From Reichenbachiella sp. (GTDB lineage Bacteria > Bacteroidota > Bacteroidia > Cytophagales > Cyclobacteriaceae), in contig NZ_JAWPMM010000001.1 of assembly GCF_033344935.1 (NCBI RefSeq), forward strand, positions 4,367,501 to 4,431,500: a DNA stretch of 64,000 nucleotides, in the 5' to 3' direction. The first letter of the stretch is position 1. Every line of letters starts with the position of its first letter. The notes beneath the pieces are model-generated. The model ran no database searches and was not told the origin of the DNA. It saw only the letters and a list, made by a program, of their open reading frames with translations. Below are positions 22,053 through 32,340 of the stretch, piece after piece. Position numbers and translations under genes: made by a program.

Positions 22053-23519
22053 CTACTGGTGGGTAGGTTTTAGCAGGTCATTCACGGTTTTCACCGGATT
22101 AAAAGTGGAAATAGGCACTTCTACAAACAGTGTAATCCAATCTGCCATAGCACCATTCCAAAGACCCGGCAGCTCCATGGCTTTGAGGTCTTTTCCATTT
22201 TTAGACTTTTCGGTTATAAAACCAGTCTTATCATCTCTATACTTAAGTAAATCAAATTTTTCCCCATTACAGCTTTTCACACCACAGACTAAATCTACTG
22301 GATTAAAGTGCGATGACTTTTTCAAAATATCGGCTTGCGTTGAATCTGACATATCTATCTGGGCAGTCTCGGCAATCTGAAGAGAAGTTCCTTCCGTTCC
22401 TTTAACCCAGAAAGGTCCACCACCCGGTTCGCCTGTATTTTCCACCATGCCACAAACACGAACTGGTCTGTTTAGATATTTTGCCAATTCGTCTGAATCT
22501 TTGAAATTCAAATCCATGCCATACTGAGTCTTGAGTTTGTCAACTGCTTCGGAAAGACAGTCTTCACCTTTTGCCATTCTGTTTTGCCAATTAAAAGAAT
22601 CTTTTTGAAAAGACAGTAACAAACTGGCCAACGCCTTTTTGTAAGTGATCGTATCGGCCTTTAAATGATCAGGTACCACATTATCAATATTCTTCACGAA
22701 AATGACATCAGCATCTAGATCATTTAAGTTCTCCAATAAGGCACCGTGCCCGGCAGGTCTAAATAGCAGTTGTCCATTATCTAGAAATGGCTCATTCGAC
22801 AAATCTACTGCAATGGTATCCGTCGATTTTTTCTGTTGTGAGAAGGAAACTTCATATTTAACTCCCAGGGCACTTTCATATTTTGCTGTCACTTCATTCA
22901 GCTTGGACTCAAATTTTTGCTGATGTTCTGGTGATACGGTAAAATGCAAGCATACAAGACCGTCTTGAGAAGCGTATTTCGCTCCTTCTATCAAATGCTC
23001 TTCTATAGGTGTTTTTGATTGACCATCCTCCAAATGAAAGGACAAAAGCCCTTTGGGTAAACTTCCATAGCCCAGTCCATTATCTTCTAACAAGGCATTC
23101 ACTATGGTTTTGTAATCTTTAGCTTTCAATAAGCTTTCTATGTCATTGCCTTGTTTTTGGAGGCTTTCAGAAAGCTCATTGAAAAAGGCAAAATCTTTGA
23201 TTCCATCTATGAATTTTTGAGTTCCTGCATTCAATTCACCTCCCGACACAAATTCAAAAAGCTCTTTGAACATCCTGGTGGCTGCTCCTGAAGCAGGCAC
23301 AAATTTCAACAAGCTTAGACCTTTAGCCTGAGATTCGTATTGACTCACAAAATCATTAATTTGCTGAGGTGTTAATTTGATAATACCATCGCCAATAGTG
23401 GCTGGTCTATCTAGATTCAAAAAAGGAAATCCAGATTTAAAATCCTCAATTTGATTTTTTATTACGCTGATATCGCTACCGCGTGAAATAATGTAGCCTT
23501 CTTGGTCTGATGAAAACAT
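22053..23519 (-). CDS. DUF4301 family protein
   Basis: The 488-residue cytoplasmic protein matches the Bacteroidota DUF4301 family in length and motifs: LKFVPASGAATRMFKELF near residue 75, VPASGAA forming a likely nucleotide-binding-like loop, LFRPAGHGALLENLNDLDAD near 250, and GEPGGGPFWVKG near 370. The GHGALLENLN and VKNIDN motifs recall nucleotidyltransferase-like or sugar-nucleotide folds, so the fold may be GT-A-like, but no reaction is established. It lies 23 bp after the glycogen synthase stop on the same strand and is probably co-transcribed with it, which suggests a link to sugar metabolism. Confidence 0.85.
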   Translation of the reverse strand: MFSSDQEGYIISRGSDISVIKNQIEDFKSGFPFLNLDRPATIGDGIIKLTPQQINDFVSQYESQAKGLSLLKFVPASGAATRMFKELFEFVSGGELNAGTQKFIDGIKDFAFFNELSESLQKQGNDIESLLKAKDYKTIVNALLEDNGLGYGSLPKGLLSFHLEDGQSKTPIEEHLIEGAKYASQDGLVCLHFTVSPEHQQKFESKLNEVTAKYESALGVKYEVSFSQQKKSTDTIAVDLSNEPFLDNGQLLFRPAGHGALLENLNDLDADVIFVKNIDNVVPDHLKADTITYKKALASLLLSFQKDSFNWQNRMAKGEDCLSEAVDKLKTQYGMDLNFKDSDELAKYLNRPVRVCGMVENTGEPGGGPFWVKGTEGTSLQIAETAQIDMSDSTQADILKKSSHFNPVDLVCGVKSCNGEKFDLLKYRDDKTGFITEKSKNGKDLKAMELPGLWNGAMADWITLFVEVPISTFNPVKTVNDLLKPTHQ

Positions 23520-23542: not shown

Positions 23543-25372
23543 TTACTTGGTTGGATAATTATCTAAGGCCATGTCATAAGCACGATCATAGTGTTTAATG
23601 AGGTTTTTCCAATCAAACTCCTCTGACAAATCCTCTGCCTTATTTCTACTTTGAATCCTAAATTTCCTATTCGTATTCACGAATTGCAACATTTTGTTGG
23701 CCAATTGATCTGCTGCAGAGTGAAAATCCTGATCTTCTCTTTCGATCAAATACATACCATGAGCCTCATTGCCTTTTTTGATTTTCTTTACATAGTTTCC
23801 AAAGCCGGACAGATCAGAAGTGACAGCCGAAACTCCACGAGCCAAACATTCTACCGGAGTATAGCCCCACGGCTCATAATAGCTTGGGAATATACCCATA
23901 TGACATCCTCTCACAAACTGACCATATTCCATTCCGAATAGGGGGTTTGTGGCAGCAATGAAATCAGGATGGTAAACCACTTTTACTTTATCGTCTTTGT
24001 GATTGAGCAAATTGGCTCCTCGTAAAAAATTGAGCACTGGATCTTCGCCATCATTCACTAAATTGTGCGTGACCACACTAGGCAAGCGATCGGATTTCCA
24101 GGATTGGATGGTTCTACGATATCTCAACTTCCAGTAGTCATCTACTAAATCATTTAGTGCGGGCAAACGATGATCAGAATTGGTAGCTGCCGCTTCAAAC
24201 AATCGCTCCTTGAGCTGCTCCATGATCGCATCGCAATTGTGATCGATCTCTTCCATGATGGCTCGGGAAGTCAATACATCTTGATTGATGCTGGTATAAG
24301 GTTGCTTGGTAACAAAGAACATGACAACGGTTTTGTCAATTTTCTTTTCTTTCATGTAGTGGTTCAATCTGGCCAAAGCTTCCAGCGTCAGATCATACCC
24401 CTTGTTTTTGTATTCAAACCGCCCGGAAGTAAAAAAGTAAAGCGTATTGTTCAGATCAAAAGTATAGGACTGAAAAAAGTGTCCCATCACAAAATGCTCA
24501 ATCTGTTTTTTGTAGGTATGATGTAAATTCTGCACTTCGTGCAATACGGAAAACCGATCGATGTTTAAGCCATTCGGCAATATTCGATCAGGATTTCTAC
24601 CCAAAAGATGAATACATTCCTTAGCTGTGACTTCACTTACTGTCGTAAAGACATTGGCGCCATGCGCACAGGCACGCTCAAGCTGTACTGTCGGCTCCAC
24701 ATTAAATTTTTTCGCTTCAGCAGCCCAATCCAAGAAAGGCAAATGATCGTAGAAAAATGGATCATTCATAGCTAAATATCGCCCCAGTAATGTCGCATGC
24801 GTGGTGAAAACCGTTTGAATAGGTATTTGTTCTTTTCTCAAATCCGGAATCGCTGTGCCAGCCATCCACTCATGAAAGTGAGCCAACAAATCCTGATCTG
24901 CATCCAAACACACCCGAGCATATCTGGACAAAAATTCTTTGACCATAAATCCAAATGCCAGCACTTCATCCATCAATGGATCGTGCTGATTGAAGGATAT
25001 ATGATGGTTTTGCCAGTAGTAGTATTTGATATCTCCAAGCTGTGACATCACACTCTGAGGGTTGAATAGTACAGTGGTTGGTCTACCCGAAACCAACCAC
25101 GATCCAATTTGCACATCCCAGCCCATGTCATTAAGCTCACGGACAATTTTAGACGCTGGTGTATCTAGAGAATTGTCAGGTTCGAAATCTGCATTTACGT
25201 TGGCATGAACCTTTGGTCCCAACAAAACATAATTATCACCCCAAGCTTTAACCATGGTAGGTACTTTGGAGCGAATCACCGTATAAATGCCTCCTACTTG
25301 ATTACACACTTCCCAAGCAACTTCAACTAATGTTGTGTTTTTTCGAGTCACAGTTTTTGCTTTTGAAGCCAT
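23543..25372 (-). CDS. Glycogen synthase, GT3 family
   Basis: This 609-residue enzyme is of the animal/fungal glycogen synthase type (GT3), not the bacterial GT5 GlgA. Visible are VEVAWEVCNQVGGIYTVIRSK at the N-terminus, HFHEWMAGTAIPDLR, FTTHATLLGRYLA, TVSEVTAKECIHLLGRNPD, LPNGLNIDRF, and the C-terminal PSYYEPWGYTPVECLARG that binds the sugar nucleotide. It adds glucose from UDP-glucose (probably) to an alpha-1,4-glucan in the cytoplasm. The divergent GH31/GT4/GH57-like genes and the branching enzyme complete an alpha-glucan locus. The 273-bp spacer to the GH31 gene holds the divergent promoters. Confidence 0.92.
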   Translation of the reverse strand: MASKAKTVTRKNTTLVEVAWEVCNQVGGIYTVIRSKVPTMVKAWGDNYVLLGPKVHANVNADFEPDNSLDTPASKIVRELNDMGWDVQIGSWLVSGRPTTVLFNPQSVMSQLGDIKYYYWQNHHISFNQHDPLMDEVLAFGFMVKEFLSRYARVCLDADQDLLAHFHEWMAGTAIPDLRKEQIPIQTVFTTHATLLGRYLAMNDPFFYDHLPFLDWAAEAKKFNVEPTVQLERACAHGANVFTTVSEVTAKECIHLLGRNPDRILPNGLNIDRFSVLHEVQNLHHTYKKQIEHFVMGHFFQSYTFDLNNTLYFFTSGRFEYKNKGYDLTLEALARLNHYMKEKKIDKTVVMFFVTKQPYTSINQDVLTSRAIMEEIDHNCDAIMEQLKERLFEAAATNSDHRLPALNDLVDDYWKLRYRRTIQSWKSDRLPSVVTHNLVNDGEDPVLNFLRGANLLNHKDDKVKVVYHPDFIAATNPLFGMEYGQFVRGCHMGIFPSYYEPWGYTPVECLARGVSAVTSDLSGFGNYVKKIKKGNEAHGMYLIEREDQDFHSAADQLANKMLQFVNTNRKFRIQSRNKAEDLSEEFDWKNLIKHYDRAYDMALDNYPTK

Positions 25373-25645: not shown

Positions 25646-28090
25646 ATGGAAAATCTTACAGAAGAAAATAAAAAAGATGAAGTCGCTGACTTCTCTGGAA
25701 ATTATATAGAAAAATTTCAGGACAAGAATGCAGAAGAATTTTTCTCTGGAGCTTTAGTGTCTTGGGAAAAGCAAGGAGACGCATTCGTATTTCATGGAGA
25801 ATTGGCTTCTCTAGAGATTCGAATCATTGCATCGGATATCCTGAAGTTCAGACATGGCATAGACGGTTATTTCGATGATGACTTTTCGTATGCTATCGAC
25901 CCATCGTTTAGCCCTGAGCAAACCAACTACAAGTTTGAAGATCAAAAAGCTGCGTTTGTAATTAAAACGGATGTACTCAAATGCTTCATCAGTAAAACCT
26001 CTTTGCAAACCAAAATTTTGACATTAGATGGTACGGCCGTCCTGGAAGATGAAAAAGGTTTCCACTGGCAGGATCACAAACACTATGGAGGCAATATCAG
26101 TATTTGCACCAGAGTGCTACATAAGGATGAGAAGTTTTACGGCTTAGGTGACAAAACAGGCCACCTCAATCTTATCGGAACCAAAAGAGAACTATGGGGT
26201 ACGGACTCCTATGGTTATGGCAATGAGTCTGACCCAGTCTATAAAAACATTCCATTCTATATGGGACAACATAGTCAAGTCGGCTATGGCATCTTCATGG
26301 ACAATACGTTCAGAAGTTTCTTTGATTTTGGAAAAGAAAGGAAAACGGTTTGTAGCTATTGGTCGCAAGGCGGTGAAATGCGCTACTACTACATCCACGG
26401 ACCAAAGTTGATAGATGTAGTAAGCAAGTACGCAAAACTGACAGGTAAGCCTCAATTGCCACCCAAATGGGCATTAGGCTATCACCAAAGTAAGTGGAGC
26501 TACTATCCAGAATCAGTAGTAAGAAAACTAGGTGACGAATTTAGAAGCCGAGAGATTCCTTGCGATGTGATTCACCTGGATATCGACTATATGGATGGAT
26601 TCAGATGCTTTACCTGGGACGATAAAAAATTTCCTAACCCGAAACAAATGATCAGTGACCTCAAAGCGCAAGGGTTTAAAACCGTGGTGATTATTGATCC
26701 CGGAATTAAAGTAGACAAAAACTATAGCGTCTATCAGGAAGGAATAGCAGGCGATCATTTCTGCAAAAGAATGGACGGCGATTTGCTCAAAGCCAGTGTA
26801 TGGCCTGGGCTGTGTCATTTCCCAGATTTTACTCAGAAAAAAACGCGTGAATGGTGGGCTACACTCTTCGATGGACTGGTCGAAGATGGTGTGGATGGTG
26901 TGTGGAATGACATGAACGAACCGGCCACTTTCGAAGACGGCACTTTCCCTAATGACGTTCGCCATGATTTCGACGGACATCCAGGCAGTCACAGAAAAGG
27001 ACACAATGTATATGGCTCGTTGATGGCTCAGTCCACTTGGGCAGGCCAAAAGCAATTCATACAAAACAAACGGCCTTTTACTATCTCGAGATCAGCTTAC
27101 GCCGGCATTCAGAAACATGCTTCGGTCTGGACTGGAGACAACATGGCTTCGTGGGAACATTTGAAAATTGCCAACATTCAATGCCAGCGATTGGCTGCTT
27201 CAGGGATCTCATTTGCAGGATCAGACGTCGGTGGTTTCATAGGATCGCCAGATGGTGAACTTTACACACGTTGGATTCAAATGGCTGTTTTCCATCCATT
27301 TTTCAGAACACACTCTTCTGGTGACCATGGAGATAAGGAACCATGGAAATTTGATCAAAAGTATGTAGACATTGTTCGTCGCTTTATAGAAATGCGCTAC
27401 GAATTGATGCCTTACATTTATTCTGTGTTTCAACATCACAGTGAAACGGGAGTGCCTATGATTCGCTCACTACATTTGGAAGGACATATCGATCCAGAGA
27501 CTTTCTACAGAGAAGAAGAATTTTTCTTAGGGGATCACTTAATGATTTGCCCTGTTTCTGAACCAGATAAATCCAGTCGTAAAATGTACCTGACTTCGGG
27601 TCAATGGTACAACTACTGGACAGATCAATTGATAGATGGTGGATTAGAAATAAAGGTGGATACGCCTTTGGATCAAATTCCAATCTTCGTACGCCAAGGG
27701 GCTATCATTCCAAAGCAACCCAAAATGCAGTATGTGGATGAGTTTGAGTTTGATGCTTTAACACTGGAATGTTACAAACCGTCTGCTGACACCTCGTCTA
27801 CCCTATACGAAGATAGCGGAGACGGATACGATTATTTATCATCTGATGGATATGTCAAAAAACATTTGACTTCGTCAATAGACGGATTTAATTGGGTGAT
27901 TACTCAAGAATCAGAAGGCGAATTTGAATCGGCCTACCAGACCTATGAAATAAAGCTACATGGACTGCAACAAATCCCAGCACAAATAGTAGTAGACAAT
28001 GAAGACCTGACTGCCCAAGTAAAGTTTGAAGGAAGCATTTCAGTTCTTTTAGTAAATAAAGATTTTAAACAAGTAGTAATTAAAACATAG
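25646..28090 (+). CDS. GH31 alpha-glucosidase
   Basis: The 814-residue protein has the GH31 beta-sandwich N-terminus, the catalytic barrel with nucleophile region VWNDMNEPATF (Asp about 422), acid/base region WTGDNMASWEHL, and the second signature SDVGGFIG. It lacks a signal peptide, so it should act on cytoplasmic alpha-glucan or malto-oligosaccharides, releasing glucose. It is the first gene of a plus-strand operon with GT4 and GH57-like genes inside a glycogen locus; comparable Bacteroidota loci often have a debranching enzyme at this place, so this enzyme may cover part of glycogen breakdown (inference). A TATTTTTG -7-like box is at 25525-25532. Confidence 0.93.
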   Translation: MENLTEENKKDEVADFSGNYIEKFQDKNAEEFFSGALVSWEKQGDAFVFHGELASLEIRIIASDILKFRHGIDGYFDDDFSYAIDPSFSPEQTNYKFEDQKAAFVIKTDVLKCFISKTSLQTKILTLDGTAVLEDEKGFHWQDHKHYGGNISICTRVLHKDEKFYGLGDKTGHLNLIGTKRELWGTDSYGYGNESDPVYKNIPFYMGQHSQVGYGIFMDNTFRSFFDFGKERKTVCSYWSQGGEMRYYYIHGPKLIDVVSKYAKLTGKPQLPPKWALGYHQSKWSYYPESVVRKLGDEFRSREIPCDVIHLDIDYMDGFRCFTWDDKKFPNPKQMISDLKAQGFKTVVIIDPGIKVDKNYSVYQEGIAGDHFCKRMDGDLLKASVWPGLCHFPDFTQKKTREWWATLFDGLVEDGVDGVWNDMNEPATFEDGTFPNDVRHDFDGHPGSHRKGHNVYGSLMAQSTWAGQKQFIQNKRPFTISRSAYAGIQKHASVWTGDNMASWEHLKIANIQCQRLAASGISFAGSDVGGFIGSPDGELYTRWIQMAVFHPFFRTHSSGDHGDKEPWKFDQKYVDIVRRFIEMRYELMPYIYSVFQHHSETGVPMIRSLHLEGHIDPETFYREEEFFLGDHLMICPVSEPDKSSRKMYLTSGQWYNYWTDQLIDGGLEIKVDTPLDQIPIFVRQGAIIPKQPKMQYVDEFEFDALTLECYKPSADTSSTLYEDSGDGYDYLSSDGYVKKHLTSSIDGFNWVITQESEGEFESAYQTYEIKLHGLQQIPAQIVVDNEDLTAQVKFEGSISVLLVNKDFKQVVIKT

Positions 28091-28133: not shown

Positions 28134-29324
28134 ATGAGCGTAAAAATCTTAATGCTTGGACCTGGGGCACCAGGTCGTCAAACGAGTGGCTTAGGAGTCG
28201 CCACCGAAAAGTTGGCTAATGAACTATCTAAAAAGACTAGTTTAAAAATCATCGAACCCAAACAGTTCGACCAACTGGGAAAACCCAAAGCTAAGCAAGA
28301 AACAGTTGAATTTTCAGATTTGAGTGTCTTGCAGGAATTGGCTACAGTGAGCATCGAAGCACAGCTTTCAGCTTATGACTATCATGAGGTGACGCAGTCA
28401 CATACCTTGGAAAAAGTGGAAAGTCAGAAGCTGTACAAGCAGCTGACTACTTTTTCAGACGAACTGATTTTGGAAGGTGAAAAGGTCGACTATGATGCAC
28501 TCTATGCTCACGATTGGATTACTTTCAAAGCAGCGCTGGATCTCAAAGAGCGATTTGGTAAAAAACTAATCGTTCATGTCCATTCTTTGGATTTTGATAG
28601 AAATTTTGGACAGACGAAATCCTGGATTTTCGAACTAGAACAAAAGGCCATGCAAGCAGCAGAAGCGGTCATTGCAGTGAGCGAGTATTCGAAAAGAGTA
28701 ATGGTTGAAGAATACGGAATATCAGCAGAGAAAATCCATGTGATATACCATGGACATACAGCTACTGCACCTATAAAAGCTAAGAGCCCATTTAGTGAAA
28801 AGATTGTTTTGTTCGTAGGTCGATTGTCAGGTCAAAAAGGCCCGATGCAATTTCTCGAAATTGCAGAAAAAGTATTTGAACAAAACCCAAACACCAGATT
28901 TGTTATATCAGGCGAAGGTGAGTTGTATAAGAAATTGATCGAAGCCGGTGCAGGAAGTGCGATAGCTGGAAGATTCCATATCACCGGTTATTTAGAAACT
29001 GAAGAACTAATGAAGCTCTACGCGATTGCCGATGTCTATTGTATGCCTTCGTTCTCTGAGCCTTTTGGGCTGACTGCACTCGAAGCGGCAGAAGCGGGTA
29101 TTCCTTTGGTGCTTTCGGATAGATGCGGCGCTGCAGAATTGTTGCCAGATGCGTGCCAAGCGAGCCCTACCGCAACGGATGATTTCGTAGATCAGATCAT
29201 TGCACTTTTGGAAGACGATAGCAAATGCAAAGCACAAGTGAAGAGCAATAAGAAAGAAATTAAAAAATTGAGTTGGGAGAAGTCTGCGACTGAAGTACTT
29301 TCGGTGGTAGATGCTGTACTATGA
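28134..29324 (+). CDS. GT4-family glycosyltransferase
   Basis: The 396-residue GT-B enzyme shows the N-terminal LGPGAPGRQTSGLGVATEKL, YDALYAHDWITFKAALDLK, HVHSLDFDR, VIAVSEYSKRVMVEEYGI, then LFVGRLSGQKGP and the donor-binding PSFSEPFGLTALEAAEAG. It has no signal peptide. Its stop overlaps the start of the GH57-like gene by 4 nt (ATGA), a coupling seen widely for GT4-GH57 gene pairs in Bacteroidota glycogen loci. It probably makes or extends an alpha-glucan; donor and exact product are unknown. Confidence 0.85.
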   Translation: MSVKILMLGPGAPGRQTSGLGVATEKLANELSKKTSLKIIEPKQFDQLGKPKAKQETVEFSDLSVLQELATVSIEAQLSAYDYHEVTQSHTLEKVESQKLYKQLTTFSDELILEGEKVDYDALYAHDWITFKAALDLKERFGKKLIVHVHSLDFDRNFGQTKSWIFELEQKAMQAAEAVIAVSEYSKRVMVEEYGISAEKIHVIYHGHTATAPIKAKSPFSEKIVLFVGRLSGQKGPMQFLEIAEKVFEQNPNTRFVISGEGELYKKLIEAGAGSAIAGRFHITGYLETEELMKLYAIADVYCMPSFSEPFGLTALEAAEAGIPLVLSDRCGAAELLPDACQASPTATDDFVDQIIALLEDDSKCKAQVKSNKKEIKKLSWEKSATEVLSVVDAVL

Positions 29325-30337
29325 GTAAATCACTATCACTTACATTAATATTCGATTGGGAATGCCCTTTGTCTGAATTTTCATTTTTTGATGTCAATTC
29401 CGGTAAATCGTATTTCCCTCCGAATGAATCCGACTTGTTTTTGACCGAATACAAGTCTGGCATGGATAGACAGCTCAAAGAAATAACAGATGGCAAACTC
29501 CCCGTATCCGTCTATTTCTCAGGGCCGTGTTTGGAGCAGCTGGCCTCTTGTGATCCTACCATCATAAAAGCAATCAAAGCCGCGAGTCATATAGAAATAC
29601 TCGGAGGCACCTATCATCATTCGCTGGTGAGCTTATTCTCGAAAACTCATTTCCAAAAAGAAATTGATTGGCATCAGCAATTGATCAAAAAACATTTTGG
29701 TAAAAAGCCCAAAACTTTTTTAAATACTACCAACATCTATTTCAATGACCTGACGGAGCTGTTAGCTGAATCGGATTACCAATCCACTTTTACAGGAGCG
29801 ATTGACTGGTATTTGGGAGATAAAAAGCATCAAAGAATATTTTCTTCAAGAACCAATGAAGCTTTCAAATTGATGTTGACCAATCAGGACAACGGCCATA
29901 CCTTGTTTCATGACCATGAAGTAATCCATAACTTCATGCAACTAACTAGTCAACAATTGGAAGATTTTGGAGGATGGAAAGAGCTGGTTAGAAAAACAAA
30001 AGCCAAAGCTGAGATTGTTTCCATCTCTGATCAGCTGAAAGCCGCACCTTCCGACACTTACAATATCCGCCAACCGATCGGTTCGGCCTACGGAGACATT
30101 GATTTGGAGCAATTGAAAAGCTATCCACTGCAAGAAAGTTTGCTCAAGCAGCTCTATGGGCTGGAAACCTCATTGGCCAAAAAATCTGAGGATCTACAAA
30201 AGAAATGGTCGAGACTGGGCTCCTTTGGCGTGCTCAAAAGTCTCAATCCAGACCTGGACCAAAACGAAACCAGCAGTAGCTACGACGTGTACCAATCGCT
30301 CATTAACATGCTGAGCGACCTACATTTAAAACTCTAA
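29321..30337 (+). CDS. GH57-like protein lacking catalytic motifs (predicted pseudoenzyme)
   Basis: The 338-residue protein keeps the general GH57 pattern of Bacteroidota glycogen loci: FFDVNSGKSYF after the first strand, VYFSGPCLEQL, EILGGTYHHSLVSLFS, and the PKTF region. Yet the usual HQP motif is replaced by ECP (residues 14-16), and the nucleophile motif, usually FRNTELIY, reads FLNTTNIY, so the Glu position is Thr137. The MDYETFGEH acid region is changed to LFHDHEVIH. It is also shorter than the usual 400 or so residues. It is intact and coupled to the GT4 gene, so it may be a regulatory or binding partner. Its 3' end overlaps the branching enzyme gene by 4 bp, tail to tail. The family assignment rests on remembered motifs. 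Confidence 0.65.
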   Translation: MSKSLSLTLIFDWECPLSEFSFFDVNSGKSYFPPNESDLFLTEYKSGMDRQLKEITDGKLPVSVYFSGPCLEQLASCDPTIIKAIKAASHIEILGGTYHHSLVSLFSKTHFQKEIDWHQQLIKKHFGKKPKTFLNTTNIYFNDLTELLAESDYQSTFTGAIDWYLGDKKHQRIFSSRTNEAFKLMLTNQDNGHTLFHDHEVIHNFMQLTSQQLEDFGGWKELVRKTKAKAEIVSISDQLKAAPSDTYNIRQPIGSAYGDIDLEQLKSYPLQESLLKQLYGLETSLAKKSEDLQKKWSRLGSFGVLKSLNPDLDQNETSSSYDVYQSLINMLSDLHLKL

Positions 30338-32340
30338 AGCTTCTTCAAAACCATAGCCGTTCGGCTAGGCGTGTAGACCGAAAGCTGATCGCCATGTTCA
30401 TAAGTAGTCGAAGGATAACTAACAGAAGTATCTATTCGATCATGCCCTCCAAAAACAAGGTCATCGCTACTCAAGATCACTTTATACTCTCCCTTTTCTG
30501 GCACATGAAATTTGTAATCGGCAATAGATCGGTCGGGGTGAAAGTTGAATACAAAAATCAGGTGATTTCTTTCATAGATCATCACTTTATTCTCCTCATC
30601 CATATTGAGCTGATTGGCTGATTGGGCTGACAGGATATTATTAGCAGCCAGCAGTTCTAACATGGCTCGATCAAAATCATTAAGCCACTCATATTTCAAA
30701 TCAGTATTATCAACCAGAGACCACTGCCTACGAGCATATTTATAACTCCAGTCATTTCCTTCTCTTGGAAAATCCACCCACTCAGGATGACCAAATTCAT
30801 TACCTATAAAATTCAAATATCCTTCACCCCCCAGACTGGCTGTGATCAGTCGAATCATTTTGTGTAGTGCAATGCCTCGTTCTACGACCAAATCCTTATC
30901 ATCCTTGGTCATGTGCCAATACATTTCTTTATCCATGAGCCAAAAAGCCAGTGACTTATCCCCCACTAGCGCTTGATCATGGGATTCTGCATAAGCGATG
31001 GTTTTCTCTTTATACCGGCGATTCGCCATCACATTCCACAGCTCATTCATACTCCAATTCTCGTCAGCCGAATGCTTAAGCAACTTGATCCAATAATCTG
31101 GCAAGCCCATACCCAATCGATAATCAAAACCAAGCCCCCCATCCGACACCGGCCTGCACATACCCGGCATGCCACTCATATCTTCGGCTATTGAAATCGC
31201 ATTTGGCTTAATTTCATGAATCAATTCATTGGCCAACTGCAAAAAGCATATCGCATCCCAATCGACCCCTTCTTTGAAATACTTGTCATAATGATCGAAG
31301 GCGACACCTTCCCCATGATGATGGTATAACATAGAAGTGACCCCATCGAAGCGAAAACCATCCATATGAAACTCCTCCATCCAATAGCGAATATTGGACA
31401 ACAAAAACTGAAGCACTTCTGTCCGACCGTAGTCAAATAGTTTTGAATCCCAACCCGTATGATAGCCACGACCCCCTTTGTGGAAATATTGATTGTCCGA
31501 CCCATCGAAGTCATTGAGCCCTTCGGCGATATTTTTTACTGCATGAGAATAGACCGCATCCATAATCACCGCAATGCCCATTTGATGCGCTTGATCTACT
31601 AGGTATCTCAAATCATCCGGCGTTCCAAATCTGGAAGATGGCGCATAAAAATTGGATACGTGATAACCAAAAGATCCATAGTACGGATGCTCTTGGATCG
31701 CCATCACCTGAATGCAGTTGTAGCCTTGTTTGGCCACTCTAGGCAATATGGAATCGGCAAATTCACGAAATGTGCCTACTCCCTCTTTCTCTTGTGCCAT
31801 GCCTACGTGGCATTCGTAGATGATTGGATTTTTTACTTCTAGCTTGAATTTTGCATCCTTCCATTTGTACTTTGAAGGCGCAATCACTTCTCCGCTAAAA
31901 TCATAGGATTTCGGATCTTGTATAGCCGACTGGATATAGGCAGGTAATCGATCCCGATCAGCCAATCCATTTTGCACTTTTACCTTTACCTGAGAAGGTG
32001 CCTTGAGTGGAAACTCGCTTTCATCTGCAATGAATACACCCCATACACCATTTTCGTCCTGTGTCATGGGATGGTGCTCTGCATGCCAATTGTTGAATTC
32101 TCCAATTAAACAAAGACTATCTGCCGCGGGTGCCCATTCTCTATACCACCAGCCTTTTGCCTTTTTATCGTAGTTGAATCCAAAGTAATGATGCCCTTCT
32201 GCAAAATTGGATAATGAACCAGATATAGATTTGATATCATTCAAGCGCTGTTCGAAATACGACATGCGCTGTGCAATATCATCTTGATAAGGAGCCAACC
32301 ATGGATCATCTGCAATAAGTGGAATTACTTCTTTGGACAT
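30334..32340 (-). CDS. glgB: 1,4-alpha-glucan branching enzyme, GH13
   Basis: The 668-residue enzyme has a CBM48-type N-terminal module (KGWWYREWAPAADSLCLIGE, residues ~60-85) and a GH13 barrel with DGFRFDGVTSMLYHHHGEG (nucleophile Asp near 335), ISIAEDMSGMPG (acid/base Glu near 385) and AYAESHDQALVGDK (Asp near 454). These motifs and the GYLNFIGNEFGHPEW stretch are those of the eukaryote-like branching enzymes, pairing with the eukaryote-like GT3 synthase in the same locus. It makes alpha-1,6 branches in glycogen. Confidence 0.95.
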   Translation of the reverse strand: MSKEVIPLIADDPWLAPYQDDIAQRMSYFEQRLNDIKSISGSLSNFAEGHHYFGFNYDKKAKGWWYREWAPAADSLCLIGEFNNWHAEHHPMTQDENGVWGVFIADESEFPLKAPSQVKVKVQNGLADRDRLPAYIQSAIQDPKSYDFSGEVIAPSKYKWKDAKFKLEVKNPIIYECHVGMAQEKEGVGTFREFADSILPRVAKQGYNCIQVMAIQEHPYYGSFGYHVSNFYAPSSRFGTPDDLRYLVDQAHQMGIAVIMDAVYSHAVKNIAEGLNDFDGSDNQYFHKGGRGYHTGWDSKLFDYGRTEVLQFLLSNIRYWMEEFHMDGFRFDGVTSMLYHHHGEGVAFDHYDKYFKEGVDWDAICFLQLANELIHEIKPNAISIAEDMSGMPGMCRPVSDGGLGFDYRLGMGLPDYWIKLLKHSADENWSMNELWNVMANRRYKEKTIAYAESHDQALVGDKSLAFWLMDKEMYWHMTKDDKDLVVERGIALHKMIRLITASLGGEGYLNFIGNEFGHPEWVDFPREGNDWSYKYARRQWSLVDNTDLKYEWLNDFDRAMLELLAANNILSAQSANQLNMDEENKVMIYERNHLIFVFNFHPDRSIADYKFHVPEKGEYKVILSSDDLVFGGHDRIDTSVSYPSTTYEHGDQLSVYTPSRTAMVLKKL

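Follow-up and report, generated by a model that had tools for sequence, protein, structure and literature searches.

The 64,000-nucleotide (nt) stretch of DNA analysed here, from the marine bacterium Reichenbachiella sp. (contig NZ_JAWPMM010000001.1, positions 4,367,501 to 4,431,500; hereafter the window, in which positions are counted from the first letter) contains the gene of a degenerate GH57-like protein of 338 amino acids (aa), termed GH57psi (29321..30337, plus strand). The Pfam scan matched this protein to PF03065 (Glyco_hydro_57) with an E value of 1.8e-20 and 73.9 bits, against a cut-off of 21.2. The profile-profile alignment with canonical GT4-linked GH57 proteins extended over 345 columns, near full length, with a probability of 100. 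GH57psi is a divergent GH57 homologue, related to the CAZy GH57 catalytic domain, and its gene was the single PF03065 match in the source genome. Directly upstream lies the gene of a GT4 glycosyltransferase of 396 aa (28134..29324, plus strand; Pfam Glycos_transf_1, E 8e-33) with the motifs SEPFGLTALEA and GRLSGQKG. The start of GH57psi overlaps the stop of GT4 in the four letters ATGA (29321..29324, plus strand), and GT4 was directly upstream at the same distance of -4 nt in all eight genomes of the genus Reichenbachiella. A GH31 alpha-glucosidase-like gene (25646..28090, plus strand; PF01055, 7e-123) ends 43 nt before GT4. Divergent to it is the GT3 glycogen synthase gene (23543..25372, minus strand; PF05693, 6.5e-193), followed by the gene of a DUF4301 protein (22053..23519, minus strand; PF14134, 6e-205), both of which are supported by synteny. 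On the other side, a convergent GlgB-type GH13 gene (30334..32340, minus strand; Pfam CBM_48 and Alpha-amylase) overlaps the end of GH57psi by 4 nt; its top NCBIfam models were GlgB, with scores below the model cut-offs. GH57psi hence sits in a glycogen locus together with the GT3 glycogen synthase, GH31, GT4 and the GlgB-type GH13 gene. The original prediction, made from the DNA letters, had placed an uninterrupted GH57-like gene, overlapped and translationally coupled with a GT4 gene, in such a locus. The PF03065 match, the open 338-aa frame starting within the ATGA of the GT4 stop and the GT3, GH31 and GlgB-type GH13 neighbours found by Pfam agree with this description.

In the GTDB family to which the window belongs, the canonical GH57 proteins linked to GT4 carry the motifs FQVHQP, FRNTELIY, LFMDYETFGEH and SDHFYYM. 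The catalytic columns were located in the window protein with four alignments, three made by MAFFT (one of them the 102-row set described below) and one profile-profile. The column of the nucleophile Glu (conserved sequence region 3, CSR-3) was occupied by Thr137 (codon 29729..29731, plus strand) in all four alignments. The nucleophile column of the profile aligned with Glu123 of the T. litoralis 4-alpha-glucanotransferase 1k1w, and Asp243 of the canonical protein L013 aligned with Asp214 of 1k1w, a position counted on the printed alignment; Glu123 and Asp214 are the catalytic residues of 1k1w. The GH57 catalytic machinery is given as a Glu/Asp pair in the available part of the literature (PMC6037648). 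The column of the proton-donor Asp (CSR-4) fell within codons 204-209 (N-F-M-Q-L-T; 29930..29947, plus strand), and its position varied with the alignment: Q207 in the profile-profile alignment, T209 in the 102-row MAFFT alignment and N204 or a gap in the other two MAFFT alignments. None of the four placed an Asp or Glu there. The His-Gln-Pro column aligned with D12-W13-E14 (29354..29362, plus strand) in the three MAFFT alignments, whereas the profile-profile alignment placed His-Gln at E14-C15 with a two-residue gap; the first-region His was absent under either type of alignment. Moreover, the segment with the SDHFYYM-type fifth region was lost. Conservation of at least 95% was seen at 87 columns of the 66 canonical GT4-linked rows, and 26 of these columns were kept in the window protein. 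In L013 numbering, these were 3 of 15 in residues 1-60, 11 of 17 in 61-140, 3 of 8 in 141-195, 2 of 19 in the acid region (196-262), 3 of 9 in 263-335, 2 of 17 in the SDHFYYM region (336-375) and 2 of 2 beyond 375.

According to these results, the replacement of the nucleophile Glu by Thr137 and the differing acid motif, both named in the original prediction, were confirmed. Its statement that HQP had become ECP held for the loss of the His, but ECP is only one of two alignment-dependent readings. The claimed loss of standard GH57 catalysis was backed by all four alignments, and the window protein very probably lacks this activity, as judged from its residues. A reading of GH57psi as a CE4 (carbohydrate esterase) polysaccharide deacetylase was rejected. 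GH57psi scored 26.2 bits with PF01522 (cut-off 23.1), but this score was not CE4-specific because the canonical GH57 protein L013 also passed, with 25.6 bits. The CE4 metal triad is Asp-His-His; Asp12 was invariant in the genus, but the two His of GTYHHSL were not both retained in L006, L007 and L009, and the metal ligands were not conserved.

The GH57psi gene was present in all eight genus genomes, with identities of 100, 70, 47, 39, 37, 36, 35 and 33%. HQP and SDHFYYM were lost and the acid segment was shortened in every one of the eight rows. The nucleophile Glu, however, was kept in six of them, including the sister R. faecimaris, and was replaced by Thr in the window protein and by Ser in L004. 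The loss of the nucleophile is thus recent, since Glu was retained in most of the genus. As to whether relatives share the substitutions, a check proposed together with the original prediction, the answer was therefore mixed: the losses of HQP and SDHFYYM were common to all, but that of the nucleophile to two of the eight. The order DUF4301-GT3 / GH31-GT4-GH57psi was the same in all eight genomes. GlgB was adjacent in four (the window, G003, G004 and G005), and the locus in G001 is cut off near the end of its contig. In the same genomes (G000-G007), where the GT3 glycogen locus was present, a carbohydrate phosphorylase (PF00343) was found in one and GH77 (PF02446) in none.

It is conceivable that GH57psi is still an enzyme for another glucan or bond, whose catalytic residues have moved (for example, to Asp12 and Asp190) or whose relatives pair the Glu of NTE with the Asp of FLQFD. 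Taken jointly, these two variants are regarded as improbable. D12 and D190 were invariant in the eight genus rows, and four relatives (L005, L007, L008 and L009) retained NTE together with an Asp at the acid column of the 102-row alignment; from sequence, a residual catalytic pair may be present in these four. However, this Asp was absent from the acid column in the other two MAFFT alignments, and neither the Glu nor the Asp occupies its catalytic column in the window protein. The genus-wide loss of the SDHFYYM region and the shortened acid segment also speak against activity. Furthermore, the D12 column was occupied by His in four and by Asn in two of six non-genus relatives, so that D12 is genus-specific.

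The distribution of degenerate copies was explored in the 102-row set. This set was non-random, the canonical loci being mostly best matches and the divergent loci hand-picked; proteins below 250 aa or below 100 bits with a custom GH57 profile, identical proteins and those with a common last 150 aa were removed before counting. In the GTDB family, a PF03065 match was found in 107 of 148 genomes. The 86 GT4-linked rows of the set comprised 66 canonical and 20 degenerate ones. The degenerate class consisted of 18 rows in which the His, the Glu or the Asp was missing in the 102-row alignment, plus L040 and L041, which were included for their lengths of 344 and 348 aa and the loss of the greater part of the acid segment. 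Outside Reichenbachiella, degenerate copies beside GT4 occurred in the genera g5, g36, g37, g50 and g56 and in other families of the same order (L092 and L128). In genome G083 (genus g77), the 321-aa protein after GT4 (L189, 496-1461) has NPF at the place of the nucleophile. It gave no Pfam match but scored 2.4e-30 with the custom GH57 profile, which points to a strongly diverged GH57. Because L189 is invisible to Pfam, degenerate GH57 partners of GT4 may be under-counted. In the 13 genomes with a degenerate copy, the best second PF03065 match was 3.4e-7 (G043), while most canonical matches were about 1e-40 to 1e-79. Many PF03065 matches lay in frames of about 800 aa; among the examples L112-L114, only L112 reached the custom profile threshold of 25 bits, and no GT4 adjoined it.

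The GT4 tree was built from the 18 degenerate rows together with alternate rows of the remaining 68 (52 rows), and the GH57 tree from the same selection minus L092 and L045 (50 rows). A later GT4 tree was made with 27 selected rows and 11 additional ones. The clade of the window (the genus with g36, g37 and g56) had support of 100/100 in the GH57 tree and, including L092, 100/95 in the GT4 tree; in the later GT4 tree it included L189, with support of 100/99. The g50, g5 and L128 copies branched outside this clade. This arrangement suggests several independent losses of GH57 catalysis beside GT4, the number of which is not firm because the trees show long-branch warnings or open forks. Furthermore, the order GH31-GT4-GH57psi was found in all six related genomes from outside the genus (G043, G147, G112, G113, G062 and G122, of which G043 is outside the trees). 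GT3 and DUF4301 were also found in five of them, and G112 had neither within the 20 kb read.

The GT4 partners kept their C-terminal catalytic motifs. SEPFG...E and GR...QK were retained in all 19 GT4 proteins compared from beside a degenerate GH57 (of 20; L045 was excluded), as in 13 others. Among solved structures, the chains closest to the window GT4 were 3c4q (E 5e-15), which is MshA, and 6tvp (E 4e-10), an alpha-maltose-1-phosphate synthase (GlgM). Both are GT4 enzymes distant from it.

GT4 and GH57 were also found in one polypeptide. Of 395 genomes surveyed across the phylum, 30 gave a match, and one of these matches lay within an open reading frame of 878 aa with GT4 domains followed by GH57 (genome G731). 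In the order of G731, the full-length GT4-GH57 fusion occurred in 6 of 114 genomes, from four genera and two families. The other five fusions were 62-65% identical to that of G731, and a seventh genome had two pieces on two contigs. These fusion rows (L143 and L182-L187, two of them Pfam-checked) belong to an order distant from that of the window. The motifs HQP, TTE, DFETFGE and EPFG were present in all six full-length fusions. Indirectly, the fusions are the best evidence for a physical cooperation of GT4 with GH57, in what looks to be an active form.

The proposed explanation is that GH57psi descends from the GH57 enzyme normally encoded directly after GT4 in this Bacteroidota family and is catalytically dead. 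Its gene remains in translational coupling with that of a GT4 whose C-terminal catalytic motifs are retained, and the protein would bind this GT4, as the natural fusions suggest for the ancestral pair. GH57psi would then stabilise GT4 or hold its alpha-glucan acceptor, by analogy with one plant isoamylase that supports the other. GH57psi is probably a helper rather than an enzyme because the catalytic residues were lost, yet the gene was kept overlapping GT4 in the glycogen locus. That it serves as a non-catalytic partner of GT4 in particular has about an even chance of being right. The original prediction, in which the protein was a likely glucan-binding or regulatory subunit of the GT4 enzyme, is supported in part, with this subunit role as a candidate. 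A broader proposal is only tentative: GT4 and GH57 would have been an ancestral two-enzyme complex of bacterial alpha-glucan metabolism, joined in a single chain in some lineages; GH57 would have turned into a non-catalytic subunit in several lineages of one Bacteroidota family, and the GT4 of the window clade would still need it. If true, GH57psi would be the bacterial equivalent of the isoamylase partner in plants, but its client would be a glycosyltransferase.

The maintenance of the gene, which was part of the original prediction, was examined through substitution rates. Between the window and R. faecimaris, the nonsynonymous rate (dN) was 0.198 and its ratio to the synonymous rate (dN/dS) was 0.063 for GH57psi, compared with 0.105 and 0.052 for GT4. 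As dS was saturated, only a value far below 1 is safe for GH57psi. The presence of the gene with the 4-nt overlap in all eight genus genomes, together with this low ratio, upholds the claim, and GH57psi is under constraint, but loosely. The mean maximum-likelihood distances of the five locus genes were 1.57 for GH57psi, 1.01 for GT4, 0.80 for DUF4301, 0.50 for GH31 and 0.35 for GT3.

Several results weigh against a partnership of GH57psi with GT4. GH57psi evolved fastest of the five genes compared. The mirror-tree test of GT4 and GH57psi over the eight genus genomes gave no GT4-specific co-evolution signal, and the partial distance correlation of GH57psi was 0.435 with GT3, 0.331 with GH31, 0.253 with DUF4301 and lowest, 0.21, with GT4. 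The nucleophile Glu persists in most of the genus, as stated above, and the fusions speak for the ancestral pair and not for the degenerate one because their GH57 motifs are intact. The GT4 itself was altered: the N-terminal loop reads TSGLG in the window versus SGGLG or NGGLG in most canonical partners, and the first Gly of SGGLG was replaced (TSGLG, NSGLG or similar) in all 14 GT4 rows of the window clade. The AlphaFold2 prediction of GH57psi, made with L060-L062 (four sequences in all), was too poor for judging the (beta/alpha)7 barrel and the helical bundle after it that characterise GH57, with a predicted local distance difference test (pLDDT) of 46 and a predicted template modelling score (pTM) of 0.43. 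Moreover, GT4 was not always accompanied by GH57. In the GT4 search of the family, 79 of the 148 genomes had a match of 1e-45 or lower, and 11 GT4 loci without a nearby Pfam GH57 match were read; L189 had the degenerate GH57, and ten had none, so the GH57 partner is not obligatory family-wide. In the later GT4 tree, the ten fell in three places: L188 with L053 (100/98), L190-L191, and L192-L198 (100/99). Because L188 (G011) and L053 (G092), the latter with a degenerate GH57, belong to one genus, a degenerate GH57 can disappear from a locus that retains GT4. The seven WEYPP-type GT4 proteins of the clade L192-L198, three of which miss the EPFG motif, may form a paralogue group. At L188, L190 and L191, a carbohydrate phosphorylase-like gene (551-555 aa; Pfam-checked for two) was observed upstream of the GT4.

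Some of these results would fit a decaying gene: with GlgB and GH31 present, GH57 would have become superfluous and would be disappearing, held for now by its coupling to GT4; this explanation is considered unlikely. Its support comes from the fast evolution of GH57psi, from the ten family GT4 loci without GH57, one of which groups as sister with a degenerate-GH57 locus, and from the several degenerate lineages. However, the frame was open in all eight genus genomes at 31-70% identity, 44 positions were invariant among the eight rows, and dN/dS was about 0.06 in the closest pair, with saturated synonymous sites. Under simulated random substitution at 0.1 per site, only 1 of 500 GH57psi copies was free of stops. 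Furthermore, no GH57-less GT4 was found in the window clade among the loci placed in the later GT4 tree; every GT4 of the clade seen was accompanied by GH57psi.

The partial correlations, with GT3 at the top, would fit another role, in which GH57psi binds glucan or works as a sensor and its target is GT3, GH31 or GlgB instead of GT4; GT3 and GH31 are also members of the conserved locus. Nevertheless, GT4 is the coupled gene, and GT4 precedes GH57 in the fusions as well. Hence, a client other than GT4 has a low probability, and the role of GH57psi as a partner of GT4 is preferred.

The name 'alpha-amylase-like proteins' of GH57 reportedly comes from Janecek and Blesak in 2011, and the GH57-amylase null mutant considered below is said to be one of Sulfolobus acidocaldarius. 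In a 2018 in silico survey, GH57 homologues without one or both catalytic residues were considered very unlikely to function in the manner of typical GH57 enzymes, and 126 of them were included in a logo (PMC6037648). The window protein, which lacks both residues, falls under this definition. Coupling to GT4, shortening and fusions are absent from the available portions of that source, whereas the window protein is coupled to GT4. A GT4 gene adjoins GH57 among alpha-glucan genes in the archaeal GT4/GH57/GH133 glycogen-type clusters (PMC11046441) and in the Segatella copri cluster (PMC11784079), as in the window. However, GH57 is presented there, in the excerpts at hand, as an amylase or possibly a branching enzyme, whereas the window locus has a probably dead GH57 and, in addition, GH31 and GT3. 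According to passages of the archaeal review, the function of GT4 beside GH57 in glycogen clusters is unsettled, and a GH57-amylase null mutant showed a dramatic decrease in glycogen (PMC11046441). The plant isoamylases ISA1 and ISA2 form a complex in which ISA1 is the catalytic subunit and each is destabilised without the other, as far as the available text describes (PMC3787081). The likeness to GH57psi, a glucan-hydrolase homologue in a partner role, is an analogy of working only: the isoamylases belong to GH13 and the partner is a homologous hydrolase, whereas the window protein belongs to GH57 and its proposed partner is a glycosyltransferase. PoGH57 of Pontibacter, in the portion of its description available, is a GH57 of low activity and a predicted DUF3536 protein; the DUF3536 label was not given to the window protein by any Pfam scan made.

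In a limited literature search, mostly of titles, abstract openings and excerpts, no report was found on repeated GH57 death beside GT4 or on GT4-GH57 fusions. Although GH57 proteins whose catalytic machinery is incomplete have been described before, the repeated emergence of such proteins as partners coupled to GT4 seems to be new. Lineages in which GH57 is dead but kept, gone, or fused to GT4 form a natural series, in which one can ask whether catalysis or binding is what GH57 provides to GT4. The case is also a caution against counting GH57 genes as amylases. GH57 counts are listed under starch degradation in a paper on Reichenbachiella species, in the part available, and the one strain there with one GH57 and no GH13 was starch-negative (PMC10752948).

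A second GH57-like kind was observed away from GT4. The proteins L049-L052, L054 and L055, of 410-426 aa, form a separate pseudo-lineage, in which HQP or HEP was retained and the nucleophile Glu was replaced by N, T, S, Y, G and G. At L050, L051 and L052, the adjoining gene encodes a protein, conserved by eye, that contains ..LPLYLPFSLHVDPMEKL.. and was blank in Pfam in the one example scanned.

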